A DNA stretch of 64,000 nucleotides from Desmodus rotundus (lineage: Eukaryota; Chordata; Mammalia; Chiroptera; Phyllostomidae), in assembly GCF_022682495.2 (NCBI RefSeq), contig NC_071392.1, forward strand, positions 140,006,818 to 140,070,817. Direction: 5' to 3'. The translations under genes were made by a program, and so were the position numbers. Within the stretch, counting starts at the first letter, position 1. Each line of letters starts with the position of its first letter. A model generated the notes under the pieces. The model saw only the letters and a program-made list of their open reading frames with translations. It did no database searches and was not told the origin of the DNA. Shown in pieces: positions 5,159 to 60,300 of the stretch.

Positions 5159-8100
5159 CTACAGAGAGAGAAGCAGCAGGTTAGGGTTCGAGTCACCTGT
5201 TGTCTCTGCCCTTTCCCAGCATCCTGGGGCCTCCAAGCAGTCGAGGACTCGGCACTGTCCACAGGCCCCTGCTCAGGTACAAGTACTATCACATAGCCAC
5301 CCACAACCCTGTTCCTCATCTCTGAAGAGGGCATCTCAGGAAGGGAGGGTGGACCAGGGTCGTGCCGTGCTGGGCATCCACCCATGAGGGAGATTTGGGA
5401 GTTGGCCCAGTTGGGGGCCAGATCCCCCCTGGAGGGGCCATTACCTTGGGTCAGCTCTGGCTTGGTCACACCCAGCCCAGATGACAGATCCTCCATGTCC
5501 AGTGGGTCTGCAAAGGATCAGCAAGGCCATTTGTTAGTTGCAGTCCAGCTACTGTACCCACTGGTGAAGGACCTGGGATTGTTTCTTCCCAACCTGGCCA
5601 CAGGCCCACCCTGGGAGAGCAGGTGGCACGTGGAAGGACACATGCTGGACGGCGGTGATGAGTGTCGGGGAATTAAGAGAAGGGCCAGGAAGGCGGTGAT
5701 GAAATGAGAGGGGTGGGTCTGTAGGACTTCAGGATGCGTGAGTGGAGTCAGCAGATGAGTGTGGATGTGAGGAAGTGACAGACAAACACGAGTGCACAGG
5801 CAGGTAGGTGGACACGAGTGGATGTGTGGCTGAGTGGCTGCCCCCTCGGGAGCTTACACCTTGAGTGTCCTGGCTGCGTGTGCACCAGGAGCGACCTCTT
5901 GTCCCTCAGCCTTCCTGGTCCTTCCTGCTCCTTTGACACTCCCTGGCACAGTGGCCACTGCTTACCACTGCAGTTATGGTGCGGGTGCCCACGGCTTCTG
6001 GTGTTGGGGACCTCGGTGCCGTTGGGGTAGACGCACCAGCAGTAGCCAATGCTCCCATAGCACTGGAGCGGCAAATAGTTGCCGTTCTCGTCGCACTGGG
6101 GCTTGAACCTGCCCAGGTGGACGGCAGGGATGCGGCTGGCCTCTTCCAGGCACTTGGTCAGGACTGAAGCGACAGGCATGGTGAAGACAGTGAGTAAGTG
6201 GACTCTGAGCCAGGGTCTCAGCAGAACCAGAGATCCACACACCACTGCTGTGGGCCTGATGCCTTCTGCCCAAGTGACTGTACTTGCTCTACCCACTGCA
6301 CAGATGGGGAAACTGAGGACTGGACCAACAAGGTCCAAGATCAAAGAGAAAGTGAATGGCTGTGTGGCTAATTCACCCTAGAATTTGAGGATTTCTTCCA
6401 ATACTCCTTGCCTATTCAAGTTTGGAATTGCACTGGTGATTCTGATGTCTAGGAAAAAGCAGTGGTCATCTCGGTAAGTCTGAGCTTCTGTTACTGAGGA
6501 TGTCCAAGTAGAAATGGGGGTTTGTTTGTGGATGTTGTAGAAAGGATTCAAACATCAGCTGGGGGGTGGTCAAGATGGCATCTAAGGTGCCTTCTATGAG
6601 TTTATGATGAAGAAACCTACAGCCCACACGGTGTGGGCCACTGATGTTCTACTTCCAAAACGGAAGCCCAGAGGGAAGAGATGCCCAAACTTGCATGGCA
6701 GACGATCACCAGAATTAAAACACAACATCCTTAAAGGCTTCAGAGCTGAAGATCCTGTATACCAGTGAATCCATGGTATACATTGTCCATGAGATGGAAA
6801 AATCCCAAAGCTCTCGTGTCTGGCACCCGCTGTGACCTCAGGGGGTGCCCTCTGAGGGCTGGGGGAGGTCACTACAGTAACTCCTGGGATGCTCCGGTGG
6901 ATTCTATGCCAGGCTCACTTGCCCAGCACCATCCTCCACAGCAAGGTCACCTCCAGACCTCTGTGCCCAGTGGGCCCTTGGACATGATGGGAGTTGGGGG
7001 CAGCCAAGCCCGGAAGGAACAGGCAGGAGAGACAGGAGTGACAGGAGTGAGAGTTGAGAAGCCCGGAGAGGCCAGCGGGGTCAGGGAGCGCCCTGAGGGA
7101 GTCCCCAGGAGCCCCAGCATCCCACGGCTCCCAACTCCTGTACCTTTTGGTGAGCCTTCAGTGAGCTTCTCTGGTGAGTTCTTGCTCATTTCAAACAAGA
7201 GCCACTGATGCATCCAGCTCTCAAAGACCTAACGGGACAGAGGCGGGGTTCAGGCTCAATAGCCCCCTCCCGCCCTGCCTGCTTTGCCCCTTAAGGGCAG
7301 AGGCAGGGAGCGCCGGACAGGGTCCCTGCACCCCTGGGTCCAGCTGCAGCCTGGTTCCCCCTTAGAGACCCACAGGGCTTGGTCAAGTTGGTTCCTCAAC
7401 TCCAAGCACCTTTCCATGTTTGCAGCTTTTTAAGTTCTTGTAAGCTTCCTCCAGCTTCCTGAGAATGGCCTCCATGGCCCACTCTTCACCTCTCCTCTTC
7501 CTAGCCCTGCCCTGGCCTTCGGGAGAGGGGGCACAAGCACGGGGAAATGCTGACCTACCTTCCAGTCCAGGCCCTCCATGGTTCTCTTAAGTTTCTTCAG
7601 GTTCTCTGGGAAGGTCCCCTTCAGCTGTGGGTACACCTTCAGGGGGTCAGCTTTCTGCAGGGTAGCAGGGCAGGAAGAAAGGTTAAAAAGAGCTCCTGGC
7701 AGGTAAGGGGAAATGTACAACCCATGTTCCCTTGGTCTTCCCTTCTGAGGGGTGGCCCCGTGATGGCGCTGGGGGGAGGGCAGGCAGTAAAGGCAGGCTG
7801 GCTGCGCAGCTACAAGGCTGGAAGGCAGGAGACCCAGCTTCCAGGTCCAGTTATACCAGGAACCCCAGTCTTCTATCTGCAGATGCCTACCCATCTTTCA
7901 GGTCCCACCTCCTCCAGAAAGACTGTGTGGACCTACCCCCCCCCAGGTTGGGTCTCCTGCATCTTCCTCACAAAGGCCCCTGCACATCCCTCGTCCCCTG
8001 GTCACTTGCCTATTGCCCATGCTACCCTGGGGTCCCCATGGGATTGGGACCTGGGTCTGACTGCTCCTCACTGTGGGCCCAGAGCCTTGCACCATGCTTG

Positions 8101-13439: not shown

Positions 13440-13640
13440 CGCCTTTGTGCCAGGCCCTGTGCTGACTGGTTTACACACTTTGTTCCATTTAATCTTTATA
13501 GTGACCCTTTGAGGACTGTTTTATTATCTCCATTTACAGATAGAGACATGGAGGCTTTGAAGGGCTACATGCTTGCCCAGGATCATGTATCCAGGAATTA
13601 GCGAAGCCCATGTTTTTAACAACTCTTCCCTTCTGCCTCC
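13440..13640 (-). repeat. MIR SINE fragment
   Basis: Shows the reverse-complement MIR signature in order: GTGCCAGGCCCTGTGCTGA, TTTAATC, TTATCTCCATTTACAGAT, then the CTTGCCCAGGATCA region. Diverged, as expected for this ancient family. Confidence 0.7.
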
Positions 13641-13936: not shown

Positions 13937-14467
13937 GCAGGGGAGGGAGAAGAGCAGACATGGCCTCTGACGCAGCCAGACCGAGTTCAACCCCAAGTCG
14001 GAGACATCCCAGCTGTGCCACCTGAGCCAGCCCCTCAACCCTTGTGCACCGTTTTCCCTTTGTAAAGTAAGGACAGTAACACCAACACTGAATTTGCAGA
14101 ACTATTAGATTAAATAAGCATATAGCACAGAGCCTGGTACAATAGGAGATACTCAAGGAAAAAAACTGTTATTATTCAAACATTTACTATTAAGATACTT
14201 TTCTGCCCTAATTTCAAATGATACTATGATTCTATAATAATCAAAACAGCACGGTACTGGGACAAAAACAGACATATAAGTCAATGGAACAGAATACAGA
14301 GCCCAGAAATAAACCCTCACATGGTCAATCTGCAACAAAGGAGGCAAAAATATACAATGGAGAAATGATAGTCTCTCTTCAACAAGTGATTTTGGGAAAA
14401 CTGGACAGATACACGCAAAAAGAGAAACTGGACCACTCTCTTACACCATATACAAAAATAAACTATA

Positions 14468-21751: not shown

Positions 21752-23430
21752 TGAATGATCAACCTGCACACAGTAATTTAAGACCACAGGACTTGGGCTG
21801 TGCTCTGGGGACTCTCAGCATTTAGAGATCGAATGGAGGAGCAGCCCTGACCAGCAGGAGGAGTGGCCAGGGGCAGGGTAGAGTCAGAGATCCCAATAAA
21901 GGAGTGAAGGAGGGAGTGTCAACTGTGTCAAATACTGGCAAGAGGGCAAGGCAGTGAGGACTGAGAGATGTCCATGCACTTGGCCACATGGAGTCATGAG
22001 ACAAGAACAGGTCTGCAAATTGGGTTGGGAGGTAACTGGAAAGAAAAGAAGTGAAGCCAGCATTTGGGGGTGGGGGTCCTGCCCACCTCCTGCCAGGTGC
22101 TTCCACAGAGCTGTCACTCTGTCATCCAGTCTCCTCCAGCTCTGGAGTGTCTCTCCTCCAAGGCAACAAAACCAGCTCCCTGCCAGCTCTTTTCCTGTGC
22201 CCAGCACTCAGACCCCCTTCCTCCGCCTGGCAGCTCATTTCCCAAATGCTGCCACCAACAGCCGCATCCACTGGGTCTGAGGAATTAGTGAAACTTTCCA
22301 AATTACACCAAGGACTTGGCTCCTGACGTTCATTCCCTCTTGGTGGAACTCTGTGTTATCTCTTTGATTAGGTACAAATTACTCTGTGTGTTTCCTCATT
22401 TTAAGGTCACAACAGCCCTGTGAATCTAAATGACATGTATAAATACCAAGTGCTAATAAGTGGTAAAAACCGGGTCTGAGCTGTCCGCAGAACCCATTCA
22501 ATTAACTATCACGCCACATTGCCTCCCACAGACCCCTTACTCACTTGGGCCAGGTGTTAGTGAAGGTCATGCCTCCTGTAGCCTCTATTCCCTTAGGAAA
22601 AGAGGCAGTTTAGAAAGGCAGATGGGATTCCTTCCCAATCTTTGTTTCGTGTGGGCAGACAAGCTTAACATCAGTTCACTAGGCTTCTGCCCTACTCAAG
22701 AATGATCCTTCTTAAGTATTTCCTAGTGACTTGCTTATATGCCTCCAAAGAGAGAAAGCTCACTACCTACATGAGCAGCCAGTTCTAGGACAACATGGCA
22801 ATCCAGAGAGTGGACTCCAGCCCAAGTTGCTCTGGTTGAATACCAACTCTGCTACCTACTAGCATGCTGTGCCTCAGTTTCCTCATCTGTACAATGGTAA
22901 TAATAGCAGTACCTACTTTCTTATTTCCACTAGTATGATTATGAGGATTAAATGCTACCTTTCAGTTGCTTGGTAAATGCTTAATACATTTTAGTTATCA
23001 ACATTACCATTATTGGTATTTCCTTGAGGTAGAGCTGCAACTTTCCTCACTATAACCTCCATACTTTGCGCCTCGTCCTGTCCCTTGGCTTTCTATCCTC
23101 TTCAGCACTCACCTGCCAGGTATTATTGTTCTGCATTTCTCAATTTTCATTTTTTCCTGATGCCAGATATGTTTTTTTGCAAGCTGTTATTCATCATACA
23201 AACATGATTTTCCTAAGATCACTATTTCTCCTTGACAGTCACTGGTTGTCTGCCAGGCAAGCTCGAAGCTGCCAAACACTAACTGGGGCTGGAAGAACGG
23301 AAGCACAGGCCCACTTGTGGGCTCCAGGCCTTTGCATCCCCTGGACTTAGAACTCCCACCAGTGGGCCCATTGATTGTACACCCTCACTAACTACCATCA
23401 AGGCAGGAGTATGTCAAGATTAAGAGCCCA
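21752..23430. other. Intergenic, one MIR recognised
   Basis: Contains a plus-oriented MIR at about 22810-22990 (CTCAGTTTCCTCATCTGTAC, GAGGATTAAATG). The rest shows no exon and no repeat I can name. Confidence 0.5.
22810..22990 (+). repeat. MIR SINE
   Basis: Contains the MIR core: TGCCTCAGTTTCCTCATCTG, AATGGTAATAATAGCAGTAC, ATTATGAGGATTAAATG. Confidence 0.8.
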
Positions 23431-23679: not shown

Positions 23680-23900
23680 AGACTCAAGCCAGATGGAGTC
23701 AAGTTGAAATTCAAGATTCTTCCACTTACTTGCTTGTGATCTTGGCCAAGATACAGTCTTCCTGAAACTTCAGTGTCCTCATCTGCAAAATGAAGACTAG
23801 TAATCCTGCCTACTTCACAGGGTGTTGTGAAGATTTGAGATAATGAATACGGAACACTCAGCACAGCGCCTATCTCGATAAATGGTTGACATTAATATCC
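23680..23900 (+). repeat. MIR SINE
   Basis: Shows CCACTTACTTGCTTGTGATC, TCAGTGTCCTCATCTGCAAA and AATACGGAACACTCAGCACA in MIR order. It lies directly next to a hAT-type element. Confidence 0.75.
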
Positions 23901-27237: not shown

Positions 27238-31752
<4,515 letters not shown>

Positions 31753-40984: not shown

Positions 40985-41814
40985 TGTTAGGGAGGGGCGC
41001 TGGTTTGGAAGTGTGAGTATATAAATCTGCACCTCAGGCAGGACACTCACCTGCGACATGGCTGTGAGGCGGCCTTGGTGTGTGCACTCATTTTGTGCCT
41101 CATCACACCCCCAGGAGCTCAGATTTTTGTCCACATTTTCCAGGGTAGGAAGCTGAGGCTGCTTCCCAGCAGAGCAGACAGAGATTGCTACCAAGCCTCC
41201 TAGGTCCGGGCACAGGCCCCTATGCACTTCGCCACACCTATGCAGGGCCTGGTGGCAAAGGACCTGGTCTGGGTCACCCCAAAGGGAAGAACGGGACCCA
41301 GTGGGTTGCTGGTACCAGGATATGGATCCTGGGTCACTTATCCGTTTAGCACATCTGCTGAGTACCTACTATGTGCCAGGCACTGTGCCAGGCTTTGGAG
41401 AGCAATGAGCAATGGGTAGCATAGACATGATGGATACAGACAGCTCCTATACAGGTAAGCCAGCCCACCATTTTATCACTGCAGGCTGTGGTAAGTGCTG
41501 TGAAGGAAAAAGGCAGACCCGAGAAGGTTGGAGGGGTGGGCTCACTCTCTTAGAGGCAGGGAGGACAGGACTTTCAAGGAAGGGACCCAAAGGGTAAGAA
41601 AGTGCAGCCATGAGGAGGGCTGGAGAAAGAGCCAGCACTGAGGCCAAGAGAACAGCTGGTGCCAAGTTGCGGAGGCCGAGAAGAGCCTGAGGGGCTGCCT
41701 GGAGGTGAGGGCAGCGTGAAGAGGGGAGAGAGGTGACCATCCGGGAGGCCAGGGTTCTGGTGTGCCTTACCCTGGTGGGAAGCCAGCCTTAGGTTATATT
41801 CCACATACCAGGGC

Positions 41815-41832
41815 GGGGGGGGGGGGGGGGGG
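41815..41832. repeat. Poly(G) tract
   Basis: Uninterrupted G18. Confidence 0.95.
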
Positions 41833-42492: not shown

Positions 42493-42510
42493 CCCCCCCC
42501 CCCCCCCCCC
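42493..42510. repeat. Poly(C) tract
   Basis: Uninterrupted C18, then GCCCCCGCC. Confidence 0.95.
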
Positions 42511-43317
42511 GCCCCCGCCATCTGGCAGGGCCCAGAGACACAAGCCCCATGATGGGGTTGTGGGGTGGGGGAAGCCTCAGGGATGGGGCTGTAATTTCAG
42601 CTGAGGGCAGGGCTCCTTAGTTTCAGTGCCACCTGGCATGAGGTTCCTCTTTCCGGCGCCTCCCCCAGGTCTATCTGGGCTGACCACCCCACCCCTGCAA
42701 GGGCAACTACTCAGCATCTCTCAGAAGAGGGCCAGGCCCAGAGAGCAGCTAGCTACTGCCTGCCCACCTGGAAAGGCGTTGAGTCAGGTGGCTCAGCATC
42801 CTGGGGTGGGGGTGGGGGTAATTGGAGGGGGCTGCCAAGTTTAATTAGTGGTTGTGAAGCCCTGTTACCTACACCTGAGAGGCCCCCCGGACTTTCATCT
42901 TCCCCACCAGCCCCCTACAGCCCGGATGAAAGGGCCAGGGAGGGGCCAGGCATTAATAGTAATTATTAGCTTCCCCCATAAAGAGAAGGCTCGGGATTAT
43001 CACCAAGCCCAGCCCGTCCTTCCCTCTCTGTCTGCCTCTTCTCTCCTTCCTCCAGCTGTCTCCTTTTTTTTTCCCTCTTGTCCTCTTTCCCCCTCTCCTC
43101 CCTCTTTCTCTTTCTTTTCTTCTCCAGGCTTGCACTTCTGTCTGCCCTTGCTTCAAGGCCTCAGGATGCGCCTGCCCCTCTGGGTCTCATCAACTCTGCG
43201 TGGGGCTTGTCTGGGGCACCGGGATATTTGGGAAGCACCCCTGTGCTTGTCTGGGTCACAGAGGGAGGGTGGGAGGTGGTGAGGGGTGGGGGAGGGGTGT
43301 AGTAGGATGTCTGTGTC

Positions 43318-49084: not shown

Positions 49085-49270
49085 ACAAAATGACAGTAAC
49101 AACTATAGCTATGCCAGGCATGGTGCTAAGTGGCTTCCTAATATTTAATCTTCTCAACAACCCTTTGAGGTAAGTACTATTATCCCCACTCTACAAACAA
49201 AGGATTGAAGCCAAGTCACGTGACAATAAGTGAGGGCTGACCTTAGATTCCAACACAGGACAGTCTGGCT
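49085..49270 (-). repeat. MIR SINE
   Basis: GCCAGGCATGGTGCTAAGTG, TCAACAACCCTTTGAGGTAA and TTATCCCCACTCTACAAACA in reverse MIR order. Confidence 0.75.
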
Positions 49271-49282
49271 CCAAAGCTCTTT

Positions 49283-49442
49283 TTTAAAAACAAGTTTACT
49301 TATTAACATGAGAGAGAGAGAGACTGAGACTTGTTCCACTTGCTTAGGCATTCATTGGATGATTCTTGTATGTGCTCTGACTGGGGACGGAGCCCACAAT
49401 CTTGGTGTATTGGGACGACCCTCTAACCTACCACAAAGCTCT
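49283..49442 (-). mobile_element. Diverged tRNA-derived SINE
   Basis: GAGAGAGAGAGACTGAGACT, CTGACTGGGGACGGAGCCCA and GGGACGACCCTCTAACCTAC resemble an older tRNA SINE in reverse orientation. Its two ends are decayed. Confidence 0.6.
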
Positions 49443-49608
49443 AATCACTAAATGGAGGGCCGTGGGTGGGGGTGAGCAGAGGCCCCGCTTAGGAGTGCAT
49501 GAGTGCAGCTGTGCTGTGTGTGTGTAGGGGGGTATCCCTGCCATTTCCCCCACACCTCCCTCCCCCGGCCCCAGCTACATACAGGTGGTGGGAATGGAGG
49601 ACCTTGGA

Positions 49609-49665
49609 ATGATAAGAATCTCCTTGCCTGTTGGAGCAGATAGCCCCAGACGAGAGTCTGGCCAC
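49609..49665 (+). repeat. Perfect 57-bp inverted repeat, left arm
   Basis: The exact reverse complement of 50047-50103, with no mismatch over 57 bases; pairing stops at the next base on both sides. The unit is unique-looking, not low-complexity. The 8 bases outside each arm do not match, so it does not look like transposon ends with a duplicated target. Confidence 0.97.
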
Positions 49666-50046
49666 CAGGCCAATCCCAGAGCCAACTTCCCACTGGAATC
49701 AACACTTGGCCCCTCCCTGCCCCCCATGCCGGCACAACTGCAAGGGCCCAGGAATGGTGTTTAGACTTGACCCTGGTGGGCCTTGCTGTGCTGGTGCCAC
49801 CTCTTTCTCAGCTTCTGATGCACACGCACAGCTGGGCAGTGGGAAGGTGCCTCCCTGGGTGGTCCCGGCTCAGCCAAGTCACTGGTGACGGGGGCAGGCC
49901 CCTGCTCCTGCCCCCTGCTCCCTGGGCCTCAGTTTCTTCATTTCTGTAAGGAGGTGGATTGAATTCTTTCAGGAATCCTAAACGAAGACAAAAGGAGGCC
50001 CACCCAGGAGAATAATGCAAATCAACAAAGCAGGCTGGGAGGGTGC

Positions 50047-50103
50047 GTGGCCAGACTCTCGTCTGGGGCTATCTGCTCCAACAGGCAAGGAGATTCTTAT
50101 CAT
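50047..50103 (-). repeat. Perfect 57-bp inverted repeat, right arm
   Basis: Partner of the left arm at 49609-49665, with a 381-bp spacer between them. The spacer itself shows no palindromic continuation and no recognisable gene. Confidence 0.97.
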
Positions 50104-50940
50104 GTGGAGTGGTGGCCACAGAGAACTGGGCAGCAACCCCCAGACCAGATGACCTTGACCATCCGTCCCTGCTTCACCTGGTGGGGACATTTCTGGACCT
50201 GTGCTGTGGAGGCACCAGCACCCTGAGCCTCAGTTTCTTTAACTAGAAAGTGGGAATTGTTATGTCTACCTCCTACCCCACGGGAGTGGTGAGAATGAAC
50301 TGAAATAATCGATGGAAATCTTATGGAGAAATCCCCCCCCTTTTTAAATTAGTATAATCTTTTGCTTTGAGCACTGTTAGAAGTATTGCTCTCCAGGTGA
50401 TCAGGTGAAAGAGAACTGAAGAATGAGGAGGGCAGAGGGTGGAGGAGTGGCTGAGACAGGCCTGGGGTGAGGGCAAGGTCAGAGCAGAGGCTCTGAGTAG
50501 CAGCTCAGAGGTTTGGGAAAGTTCGTCCAGCTCTGGCCCTAGGCACCTGCTGCCCCGTCGGGGCTGAACTTGGCCTAGCCCTGCGTTGCCCTCAGAGGAC
50601 TTTGCGCTGATTTCTGTCACAGCATTTAGAGACCACATGTGCTTCTGAGTGTTTTTCTTTGCTGGGTTGTAATTGGTGCATCACAATGAGCACGGTAAAA
50701 CAGGAAATTAAGCAATTTACATTTGTTTACAAAAGCCATTATCTCCTCGGTGTGACGATTCTAAAGATCTTTCACTACCCCTGCTCTGTTCTCTAGGTCA
50801 AGTTGAACTCTCCAGAGACTTGGAAAAATGTGGCCAGATGGTCCAAAAAAATGTTTAGCACAGCTCGGCTCTTTTGCAAGCTGAGGGTGTCTCCCACAGG
50901 TTGGCCAAACCTCCATATTCTCATCTTTAAAATGGGGTGA

Positions 50941-53039: not shown

Positions 53040-53280
53040 AAAGCCAGCATTCAAACCCAGGCTTATCATGTGCTTATTATGTGACAGATGCCACACTGAG
53101 GACTTTACATATTTAACTCAGGTAATTCTCACAACAACCCTGTGAAGTACATACTATTACTACCCCTGCTTTGGAGATGAGGAAACTGAGCACAGAAAGG
53201 TGGAAAACTGGCCCAAGGTCACACAGCTTGAAAGGGGTAAAGCCAGCGTTCAAACCCAGGCAGCCTGGCCTGAGTCCGCA
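53040..53280 (-). repeat. MIR SINE, long copy
   Basis: Nearly full MIR in reverse: CACAACAACCCTGTGAAGTA, GAGATGAGGAAACTGAG, GCCCAAGGTCACACAGCTTG, AAGCCAGCGTTCAAACCCAG. The start of the segment repeats the last motif, hinting at a partial duplication. Confidence 0.85.
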
Positions 53281-55849: not shown

Positions 55850-57300
55850 CTGGCCAGGGCTCTCCCAGGGCCTTGGGAGGCGCGGCGGGCGCGGGTCTTT
55901 GTTTCCGTGGTTCTCTCTGAAGCCTCTCTGACCCCCAAGCGCTGTTCCCTCTTTGACCCCGAATAACTTGTTGGTTTCCCCCGGGCTTTGTTTCCTCGGG
56001 GTCACCACCTCCGGGACGCCCGGCAGCCGCTCCCGGCACTCATGGGTCCCGTATCTGACACCCCTCCCGCCCCCCGCCCCCCGCCCCCTACCCGCTCCGA
56101 GACAGGGGTCAAAGGCAGCCTGTGTCACGTGGTCGCCGAGCTGCACCGAATCGGCCGGGAGAGCCGAGGGAGAATCCGGGTGGAAGCCGAGAAATCCAGC
56201 CCCGATAGCAGCGTGGGGTCCCGCCCCGGCCCCCGCCCCGGGGCGCTTGCAGCACGCCCGCCGGCAGCCCGGGCCTCCCGAGCCGATCTCCGGCCTGCAC
56301 CCACGCTCCATCACGGGATCAAGCCCCGCTCCCACGGCCGCGATCCGGGGAGGTAGGCGCCGGGGCCGGAGCGGGTAAGGGGACGTGGGTTAGCGGGGTC
56401 CCCCGAGGGCGGGCTCGCCGGTCTGCGCTCCGCGGGCCCATGGGGGGCGAGGGAGCTCGCCTCCACTTCCAGGCTGACGGGAGACCCCCACCTTGCCGCC
56501 GCGGGAGGAGGGGAGGGCGGCAGGCTGCCCCAGCGCTGCCGGGCGCCGGGACTGGGGGCTGGGCGTCGGGAGGGTGGGGTGGGGGAGGAGAGCGAGCCGG
56601 AGGCGGGGCGGGCGGCTGCGCCGGCGGTGGCGGCGGCGGCGGCGGAGGCGGCGGGGGGCGGGGGTGGGAGCGGCAGGAGGCGGCCGCGAAGGGGTTAACC
56701 TCCGCCGGGGCCCGAGCCCAGCGGCGCTAGCGCGGCTGGGGGACCCAGGCGTCCTGCGGCTCTCCCAGAGCGCCCCCTTCCCCGGGTAGCACCCCAGCCG
56801 TGGCAGGTAAGAGGCCGAGAGGGCCGGGACCAGCGGGTCCCCTGTCGCTCAGCCGGCGAGGCCCAGCCAGGCTTGCAGGCCGCGCGGGGCCCGAGCGGCA
56901 GCCGGCGCAAGTTTGGTGCGGGCGGGCGCCGGGCGGGCGCCGGGCGGGCCCCGCGCTCGGGGTGGGAGGACAAAGGGGTGGGGGACCGCGCGGGGGCCGG
57001 GGGCAGGCCGGGGTGCGCGCCAGGGCAGCGCGGCAGCTGTAGGTCACGGATAATGTCACTCACGAGGAATGCCCCCTCCCCCTTCCCTACTCCCAAACAG
57101 GGGAAACTTTTGTCTGGCGAGGGAGGGGGTTAGAGGCCGGGTCCCCGCTTCGGGAAGGGTAAGGCGGCAGGACCGGTTTTCTCCAGGCTGTGAGCGGCCT
57201 GGTCTACAGCTCCTCTCTTCCCTTAGGTGCTCAGGAGCAACGAGCCCCCGCTTTGAACGCTGCTCTTTAACACTCTGGGACCGGCTGAGGAGGGGGCGCC
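55850..57300 (+). promoter_or_regulatory. NDST1: CpG island, presumed NDST1 promoter
   Basis: About 1.4 kb of very CpG-rich sequence with many GC boxes and (CGG)-like runs near 56620-56660. It is the only other strong CpG island in the window besides RPS14's and lies where NDST1 (heparan sulfate N-deacetylase/N-sulfotransferase 1) is expected in the conserved order TCOF1-CD74-RPS14-NDST1. No NDST1 protein sequence is in the window, so the name rests on synteny. Confidence 0.6.
56500..56806 (+). other. NDST1: Presumed NDST1 noncoding first exon
   Basis: A strong donor, TGGCAG then GTAAGAG, ends this exon at 56806. Other donors lie at 56353 (GTAGGC) and 56375 (GTAAGG), so alternative first exons are possible. 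The 5' limit is a guess inside the GC-rich promoter. Frames open here are side-effects of GC content. Confidence 0.4.
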
Positions 57301-60300
57301 CGTGGACGCGTGGGCTCTGGGACAAGCGGGGAATCTGGAGACTGGCTTCCTGGCTCTTTCCCAGATTAGAGCACCTGGGTCAGCTCAGAGCCCTGCCAGG
57401 GCCAGCCGGTACAGAGCCCTAACCCCAGTCACGCCCCAGTGCTATTACCACCCACCAGCCACACCTCCCCCCAAAAGCGTTTGGAATGGCCTTGGGCAGT
57501 ACTGGCTGGCCCCTGGTCTGAGGTTCAGACTGACCTGGGTGTCTGTTACTTCCAAGCTGTGTGACCTTGGTGCCTTAGCTTCTCTTAACCTCAATTTCCT
57601 CGCCTGTGAAATGGGCAGAGTGGAGCAGCTGCCAGAATAAGGATAAAGTGAGCACTCTGGGACCTCAGTCACCAGTGGCGTGTTTATATTCAACAAGTAT
57701 TGAATGTCTGTTTCCCGTGGGCCAGGCACCGGGCTAATTGTATGTGTTCTAATTTCATTCTTTGACGTTACTATTAACCCCACTTTACAGAGGGAAAACT
57801 GAGGCACAGAATGGCAAAGGTCACACAGGTGGGAAGTGGTGACTCCCCTCCCCCAGCCTGAGTCTCAGCTGACAGGGCTCTGTAAGGTCCTGCTATGACT
57901 GAGTTCACAGTTTCATTTCAGTTGAAATTATGACGACACCTGCCCCCTCTTCCCACCACCCTTACCCCCAAGTGATGCTCCTTCTGGCTGGTGCTGCTGT
58001 GGGTGAGGTCTTGTGCCCTGGCTCTCATTGTGGGCAGCTGGAGCAGGAGGGGAAGTCAGTTGGAGCCCTGGCCTGCAGCACCGTGATGGTCCAATTTCTG
58101 TCGCTGGCTGAATCCTTGGCAGGAACGCTCTCCCAGTTTGGGTGGTACAGGGAGGAGCCCGTCTCCCTGGCTTTCGGCTGGGGACAGCTGGTGGCTTTGT
58201 CAACAGACCTCTCCCCAGCACCCAGGGGAGAGCAGTGCCTTTCATCTCCATTAGACCAAGTCACTTTCAGATCAGCAGGGGCAGAGGCAGGGGTGATGAG
58301 AGATCTAAGGCCACGGGGTTGATATCTTAGTGTCCTCTTGTGTGACTCATCATCAGAGTGCTCAGTGCTAAGCTTATGGGTTGCTCTAGGTGCCCAAGCC
58401 CCAGAGGTCCTTGAGGACAGCTAGGGGAGGGGACTTTGAGCCAGGGTCAGGATGGCAGAATCCCAACAGAAAACGCACGTGTGCACGGGTGTCGGAGCCC
58501 AGGGCACCCTATGGGCATTCATGAAATGCCCTGTGAGTGGCCTGGTGGGCTAGCCCAGACTTCCACTGGCTTTAGTCCCCGTGCCAGGGGCACCGTCTCA
58601 TGACTGCTGGTAGGGCTTTCACTGGGGGCTTTGAGTGATTTCTTAAAAAATGGGAAGCCAATTGTTAGTTCATAAATGACATCTTAAAACAACGGAGTGC
58701 GGTAGATAAGGAAGGAAGTTCTTGGGAGGCGAAGTCGGTGCACTGCTGTTGAAACCGCTCCGAGCGCTGCTCCTGCACTACGCCTTGGATTTTCAGGGTC
58801 CGCAGGCTTTTCCTTGGCCCCAGAAATAGGGGCCCTTCTGGGTGCACAGTTCGCTTTCAGCTTGTGGGAAACCCGTGGAAATTCTACTACACGCTGGACT
58901 TTGAAGGGACTCAGAAATGCAGGGAAATGAGTGGAGGGGCCGGGAGGCTGGAAAGAGTCCTGGGCAGTTGGGGTGACCATTGGCACGTGGTCAGACTCTC
59001 TTTGTTGTGCTCAGGGCAGGGGGAGAGTCCTCTTGGAGAATCAACAGGTGAAGAGAGGTGGCCGGCAAAGCAAGAAAAGACGGAAAGCTAGGCTCCTGTG
59101 AACAAGGGGGCATGCAAGGAACAGTTTTGCAATTCCAAGTTGAGGATGTAGTCACAAATACAAAATCATATAGGCTGGGGTTTTCCTAGGGGTCAACGAA
59201 CACACTCCGCATCTGAGAAACTTAGAAACGGACTCCGGTCTCTCTCTGCCTTGCGCTAGGGACCTGCTTGACCTGCCTTCCATACTTTGGGACCAAAGCC
59301 GGGCCTGAAAGTCCCAGAGGCTGGGCAGATTTCTGCTGGGCTAGAAGTTGCTTTGGAGTATGGCTTGAAATATCTGGGCTGTTGGGAAGATTTGGACCTT
59401 CTTTACTTGAAGTGGAACTTTAGGGTAATTTGTTAAGTATATATGGAAAATGTCTGTGGACAGGGGTGATAGAGACAGGAAGTGAGCTGAAGGGGCTGCT
59501 GGTTTCTGTGACTGGAGAGGCTGCTGATCTGATGGGGGAAGGAAGGCAAGAAGGATCAAGTGATGGCGGGCTTGATCGGTGATGGATGGGCTTTGGACAG
59601 TCAGCAGAGGGGAGGGTTCCTCGGGCTGTTAATGTCCGCAGGGCTTCCTGGGGGAGGACGTGTCGGTGAGGCTGCAGACTGGTGATCGGAGCAGTGGGAG
59701 ATGCGATTGGTGTGGGCAGCTTGTGGGCAGCTTGCTGTATCTGCGCGGGAGTTTGGACTTTGTCCTGCGCTGGTGGAGAGGACAGAGGGTTGTAAGCAGC
59801 TCGTTGAGTCGATGCCTGGTACTGTGCCTTGTGCCAGGCTTCTCACAGACGCTCCATTGAAATCTCACAATACCCCTGCAAAGGAGCTGCTGCTGCTGGT
59901 AACCCCCACCCCTGCCCCGGGGAGCTGGAGGCTCCGAGGGATCGAGTCACTTACAGAGCTATATTTGAATGCAGGCCTGAACTGTTTCTGCCCAGGTCAT
60001 TTGGCCAAAAATGATGGCAAGACTGGCTGGGTTGCAACCAGCTCAGAGATGATGCTAATCTGGTCCAGCAGCGAGCTGACCAAAGTCTGACTCAGGCTAT
60101 GGGACTGAGAGGGAAGGAGGAGGAGGCTGCCTTGGGGGCTGGGGTCATCACAGGTGGTCCAAGGTTTGGGTAAGGACCGGTAAGTCACAGTGTCACTGCT
60201 TTCAAGTCCCTGCAGGGCTCTCTGCAGGCAGAGGGCATAGTCTTGTCCTATGTGCCTCCTGTGGGCACAGACAGCACCAAGGTGACAGGGGAGCTAAGGG

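Follow-up and report, generated by a model that had tools for sequence, protein, structure and literature searches.

The 64,000-nucleotide stretch of the Desmodus rotundus genome that was analysed here (hereafter the window) contains a perfect 57-bp inverted repeat around a 381-bp spacer, which is real as sequence and is probably the scar of a single template-switch mutation that copied the left arm, inverted, into the right-hand site. The two arms are reverse complements of each other at 57 of 57 bases; the occurrence of an insertion is itself inferred, and so are the direction and strand of the copying, the pathway of the polymerase and the size of the duplication (4 or 7 bp). The coordinates, length and complementarity given in a preliminary description of this DNA proved exact (Table 1), and the sharp ends that it reported were confirmed, since extension of the arms halts on both sides: the left arm lies between GGACCTTGGA and CAGGCCAATC, the right arm between GGGAGGGTGC and GTGGAGTGGT, and identity is lost abruptly at each boundary.

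Table 1. Coordinates of the inverted repeat, its edge features and the companion repeat at locus L018 (numbered within that locus).
Feature	Position	Strand	Description
Left arm	49609-49665	+	57 bp, exact reverse complement of 50047-50103; putative source (template)
Spacer	49666-50046	.	381 bp; second copy not found (genome search)
Right arm	50047-50103	-	57 bp; putative inserted inverted copy, on the basis of the one-sided edge duplication and the analogy with L018
Small perfect hairpin CCAGAC-GAGA-GTCTGG	49646-49661	+	GNRA-type loop; separated by 4 bp from the arm edge at which the switch presumably started
Direct repeat GTGGCCA, first copy	50047-50053	+	First 4 bp are GTGG; left edge of the right arm
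GTGGAGTG	50104-50111	+	In the 4-bp model, original flank opening with the second GTGG; in the 7-bp model, filler
Direct repeat GTGGCCA, second copy	50112-50118	+	From the direct-repeat scan and the sequence
L018 inverted repeat	7564-7661 and 7940-8037		98 bp, one mismatch (98.98%), spacer 278 bp

At 57 bp this is the longest perfect inverted repeat within the window, and the longest found in 20 order-3 Markov shuffles of the whole window measured 13-16 bp (spacers of up to 3 kb, with repeats of one or two letters omitted). The runner-up in the real window was a 27-bp AC run when any distance was allowed and a 22-bp G-rich run at distances of up to 3 kb, the latter being a G run paired with a C run approximately 660 bp apart (41811-41832 and 42493-42514). 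A search of the genome (2,119,635,868 bases in 574 contigs) with a 601-bp query around the repeat returned three matches, namely the locus itself and two arm-to-arm matches; very common words are skipped in this search and scoring is confined to the best candidates, here a single region. The preliminary description had named a high copy number of the 57-mer as the outcome that would count against it, and no further copy of the arm was found in the 2.12-Gb genome at the sensitivity of this search, which is also the sole level at which divergent copies of the arm are excluded. Nor did the same search find a paralogous empty site. Comparison of the arm and spacer with 314 kb of DNA gave self matches alone, and the left flank (49409-49608) has one weak relative in the same 314 kb, at locus L023 (E 0.00021). 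The spacer was also considered as an ancient SINE, for which we make no claim; a profile seeded with a MIR-like copy at 49097-49278 matched weakly near the repeat, at 50229-50317 (E 0.04) and 50938-50911 (E 0.039).

The edges of the two arms differ. The right arm opens with GTGG (50047-50050), and the same four bases come directly after it (50104-50107); the number of bases shared between the arm edges and their own flanks is 4 and 0 for the right arm and 0 and 0 for the left. A wider scan, reaching from 20 bases outside each edge to 8 bases within it, gives the 7-bp direct repeat GTGGCCA for the right arm and a repeat of 3 bp for the left. Among random 57-base placements, 2.5% share a total of at least 4 edge bases and 5.9% have a flanking direct repeat of at least 7 bp, both figures being for one arm, uncorrected for the examination of two arms under two definitions, and to some extent post hoc. 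The preliminary description had seen no flanking target duplication, which holds for the left arm and for the sequence abutting the 495-bp unit as a whole, but not for the right arm with its GTGG (4 bp) or GTGGCCA (7 bp). Because two arms and two definitions were examined, this edge duplication is suggestive as to the direction of copying and falls short of proof; it points to the left arm as probably the source and to the right arm as the inserted inverted copy. In a simple history, the original right site would have read GGGAGGGTGC joined to GTGGAGTGGTGGCCACAG, with departure and return both at GTGG (4-bp model). In the alternative history (7-bp model) GTGGCCA would have been used, GGGAGGGTGC would originally have been followed by GTGGCCACAG, and 8 bp of untemplated filler would be required.

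A sample of the genome comprising 25 stretches of 10 kb (250 kb; 20 from the contig of the window and five from four others) contained one more long, near-perfect, low-copy inverted repeat, at locus L018 (contig C6, ~103.0 Mb), within which the perfect stretch is 90 bp. All 25 loci were scanned for perfect repeats, and 20 of the 25 together with the window for imperfect ones. On each side of the right arm at L018 there is a copy of the 15-mer GGGCTGGCTTCCCAC (starting at 7917 and 8040), separated from the arm by 8 and 2 extra bases, respectively; the flanking-repeat scan saw 12 bp of this 15-mer at the right arm and 4 bp at the left, and flanking direct repeats of at least 12 bp occurred in 0.1% of placements. 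The arm is part of an old low-copy repeat, for which six matches were obtained: the two arms of the locus itself and four other relatives, 76-84% identical. Each of the four dispersed relatives gives a better score in the left-arm context than in the right-arm context (48.5 vs 36.5, 41.5 vs 30.5, 44 vs 36 and 37 vs 25), a comparison biased towards the left-arm context by the query with which they were found, which carried it. In the right-arm context three of the four end within 3 bases of the arm boundary, and one (L033) aligns 33 bases beyond it, at the lower score. Taken together, these alignments and the direct repeat suggest that the left arm of L018 is probably the source and that the insertion is the right arm, which sits within the direct repeat; the structure in the window has the same layout.

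Several other pairs in the sample were left out of this count. The perfect repeats concerned are those of 26 bp at L012 and of 39 and 21 bp at L022; the 39-bp repeat lies in a dispersed repeat (27 hits for the region among the pooled sequences), and the other two are short with spacers above 3.5 kb. Imperfect pairs at L022 (232 bp, 81.5%), L019 (80 bp, 77.5%; 25 bp, 88%) and L020 (50 bp, 80%) were not taken as young cases. A single clear further case in 250 kb corresponds to 4 per Mb (95% interval 0.1-22), a rate too uncertain to build on, and it shows that the structure in the window is not alone in its kind.

Of the origins listed in the preliminary description, the best supported is an inverted template switch or fold-back copy, in view of an arm for which the genome search gave no second copy, the one-sided edge duplication and the case of L018. 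During DNA synthesis across the right-hand site, either in replication or while a break was being repaired by microhomology-mediated break-induced replication, the 3' end of the growing strand would have quit its template and annealed through GTGG (up to GTGGCCA) at the left-arm end some 0.4 kb away. Approximately 50-57 bases would then have been copied backwards from the left arm, after which the strand would have gone back to its original template at, or slightly before, the point of departure. The outcome would be an inverted 57-bp copy with a short edge duplication, that is, a '4 before 1' event in the four-point model of template switching (Loytynoja and Goldman, via Walker et al., 2021; PMC7954356). 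The stable GNRA-type mini-hairpin beside the presumed switch point may have aided the switch. Hairpins with a stem of 6 and a GNRA loop of 4 number five in the 314 kb, both strands counted together, two of them being those in these two arms, and stem-6 hairpins with any loop of 4 number 109 in the same DNA. In rRNA, hairpins with instantaneous compensatory mutations have been described as enriched in GNRA loops (34.0% vs 17.9%; PMC8794818). The link between the mini-hairpin and the switch is post hoc and stays suggestive.

Events of this type are known from other genomes. In great apes, template switches have been described that create single inverted repeats and '4 before 1' insertions, with a gold-standard set of 1503 events whose inserts reach at most 128 nt (median 12 nt) and a search zone of ±40 nt around a mutation cluster, widened by ±100 nt (Walker et al., 2021; PMC7954356). 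The structure in the window resembles the short-range switches of that report in being a single inverted copy of nearby sequence that appears as one insertion, in its putative return point before the departure point, which would leave a short direct duplication, as in the '4 before 1' type, and in its length of 57 nt, inside the reported maximum of 128. It is unlike them in that the template lies 381 bp away here (278 bp at L018), compared with a searched zone of approximately 100 nt. Templated inverted insertions of at least 25 bp also exist in the human germline, where 10 and 11 classical templated insertions of this size were reported as germline variants in two people and microhomology of at least 1 bp was present at 138 of 155 and 135 of 148 resolvable junctions across all classes (Osia et al., 2021; PMC8421209). 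The putative inverted templated insertion and the possible junction microhomology recall these MMBIR-linked events (MMB-TI), which occur as germline variants. Two differences from MMB-TI as published stand out: the 381-bp spacer exceeds the 100 bp within which the tool of Osia et al. (2021; PMC8421209) sought templates, a limit that is a search setting, and the insertion in the window is a reading made without comparison to a reference. The feature common to both classes, a segment that is the reverse complement of nearby sequence, was found here at 57 of 57 bases and a distance of 381 bp.

Other classes of templated insertion also share features with the structure. Fold-back templated insertions at double-strand breaks similarly involve a microhomology-primed inverted duplication beside the break, but those described are mostly ~5-34 bp long and come from yeast (Yu et al., 2024; PMC11724301). 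Templated sequence insertion polymorphisms share the insertion of a copied patch but draw on a distant template (PMC5110952). As set out in that source, class 1 of these has a duplication of at least 5 bp and class 2 microhomology or filler, and the LINE-1-mediated class 1 is further marked by a poly(A) tract of 10-40, a poly(A) signal and a TTTT/A target (PMC5110952). At the arms of the present repeat there is no poly(A) tract at either arm edge and no TTTT/A, the target context being GGGTGC/GTGG. A survey of perfect inverted repeats offers no yardstick here, as the spacers it describes are under nine bases (PMC13155455). The mechanism is most likely ordinary, a known class of mutation with a template farther away than the cited scanners cover. 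The wider proposition, that mid-range inverted templated insertions (~50-100 bp, copied from 250-400 bp away, with target duplications of 4-15 bp) are common and under-counted in this genome, being missed by scanners of ~100 nt, strikes us as unlikely; on that view the target duplications would indicate a staggered break with fill-in and not simple slippage of the polymerase.

Arm identity by itself is symmetric, and the same mechanism could have run in the opposite direction, with the right arm original and the left arm its inserted inverted copy. We consider this improbable, as the left arm shares no bases with its flanks (0,0) and has a flanking repeat of 3 bp, and as the arm that lies within the direct repeat at L018 seems to be the derived one, each of these being a weak argument. 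The identity of the arms also bears on the age of the event. Neutral rates are taken as 1.5-3 x 10^-9 per site and year, at which zero differences between two 57-bp arms set a 95% upper age of 17.5-8.8 My (~9-18 My). This implies an event that is young to moderately young and not necessarily very recent; the recent origin read from perfect identity in the preliminary description stands to the extent of an age below ~9-18 My, but a very recent one is not required. Ongoing conversion between the arms, which had been offered as another reason for their identity, is not needed, because zero differences in 2 x 57 bp are expected at any age below ~9-18 My. An older inverted repeat whose arms stayed identical through gene conversion between them or through repeated template switching, possibly inverting the spacer as well, would have precedents at inverted repeats (PMC8604942), but nothing in the data demands it and identity is lost abruptly at both ends, and we regard it as very unlikely.

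A template switch is also to be preferred over readings that do not involve copying between the arms. A 495-bp unit bearing perfect terminal inverted repeats has the form of a non-autonomous DNA transposon or MITE with 57-bp termini, but neither the genome search, which scores best candidates, nor the 314 kb compared yielded another copy of arm or spacer, and no target duplication abuts the unit, the flanks reading TTGGA (left) and GTGGA (right) (TGGA is present on both sides, one base out of register); we give this next to no credence. The arms were also considered as a transposon end, which was rejected when other copies were not found in the 601-bp genome search. An assembly or sequencing artefact, in the form of a chimeric or fold-back read carried into the consensus, was raised in the preliminary description. 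It was judged less likely, and is in our view highly improbable, because it would not predict the edge duplication and because L018 has a comparable structure whose arms carry one mismatch; moreover, the locus is inside a 160-Mb contig, there is no N in the window, and a short 57-bp copy set internally behind a 381-bp spacer is not what the usual fold-back artefact looks like. As to RNA, the 495-base strand is predicted to fold with the full 57-bp stem at -274.3 kcal/mol (z -11; 0 of 100 shuffles as low), a stability that is due to the inverted repeat itself. The long transcript hairpin foreseen earlier is accordingly sound as a predicted physical fold, but no Rfam family reaches its gathering score in the window. 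The sole permissive Rfam match, to mir-298 in the spacer, is at chance level (18.5 bits vs a cutoff of 80, E 0.98), no gene was found over the repeat in the sequence scanned, and miRNA precursors are unlike a hairpin with a loop of 381 nt. A functional RNA hairpin under selection, be it a long dsRNA, an siRNA or a young miRNA precursor, would be compatible with the full-stem fold, itself a consequence of the repeat, and with the description of miRNA hairpins that can arise by template switching (PMC8794818), but for the foregoing reasons we hold it to be highly unlikely. A young hairpin of this kind is at most raw material; nothing observed speaks for a function, and we propose none.

The inverted repeat appears to be intergenic, judged from the frames and ORFs scanned. 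Between 49 and 64 kb the three plus-strand frames yielded no Pfam domain, and no family was found in four ORFs of the minus strand at 43-64 kb (of 10 ORFs tested) or in the one ORF tested on the plus strand at 1-49 kb. Elsewhere in the window, the minus-strand frame at 5748-6377 carries an exon with a thyroglobulin type-1 domain (Pfam E 3e-17). By summed score the thyroglobulins, with their many repeated domains, came top among PDB entries, and over a single stretch the best matches were residues 70-139 of 8vrw_C, the MHC class II invariant chain (127.3 bits), and residues 73-137 of its p41 fragment, 1icf_I (corresponding to ~5967-6161 of the minus strand); on these matches the exon at 5967-6161 (minus strand) is read as that of CD74. 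Ribosomal S11-family pieces lie in three minus-strand frames at ~30341-30270, 29775-29548 and 28519-28442 with their profile order kept, the middle piece being above the Pfam cutoff (51.6 vs 25.1 bits) and the outer two just below it (19.5 and 23.6), which probably makes 28442-30341 (minus strand) a spliced S11-family gene that we take, by synteny, to be RPS14. A GC-rich island at 56001-57000 (GC peak 0.786) is possibly the promoter of the next gene, presumably NDST1 from the usual mammalian order. The window also holds seven matches to a dispersed old repeat that resembles MIR (13446-13553, 14051-14141, 22873-22954, 23771-23874, 49111-49210, 53080-53190 and 57718-57803).

As an individual locus the inverted repeat is ordinary. 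What it looks like is a clean template-switch scar seen in a single genome, with a template beyond the ~100-nt reach of two published genome-wide scanners. Together with L018, it suggests that a single assembly can suffice to detect inverted copies of this medium range, with edge duplications giving their polarity. A survey of bat genomes on this basis could give the rate at which such medium-range inverted copies arise and their role in seeding new hairpins.
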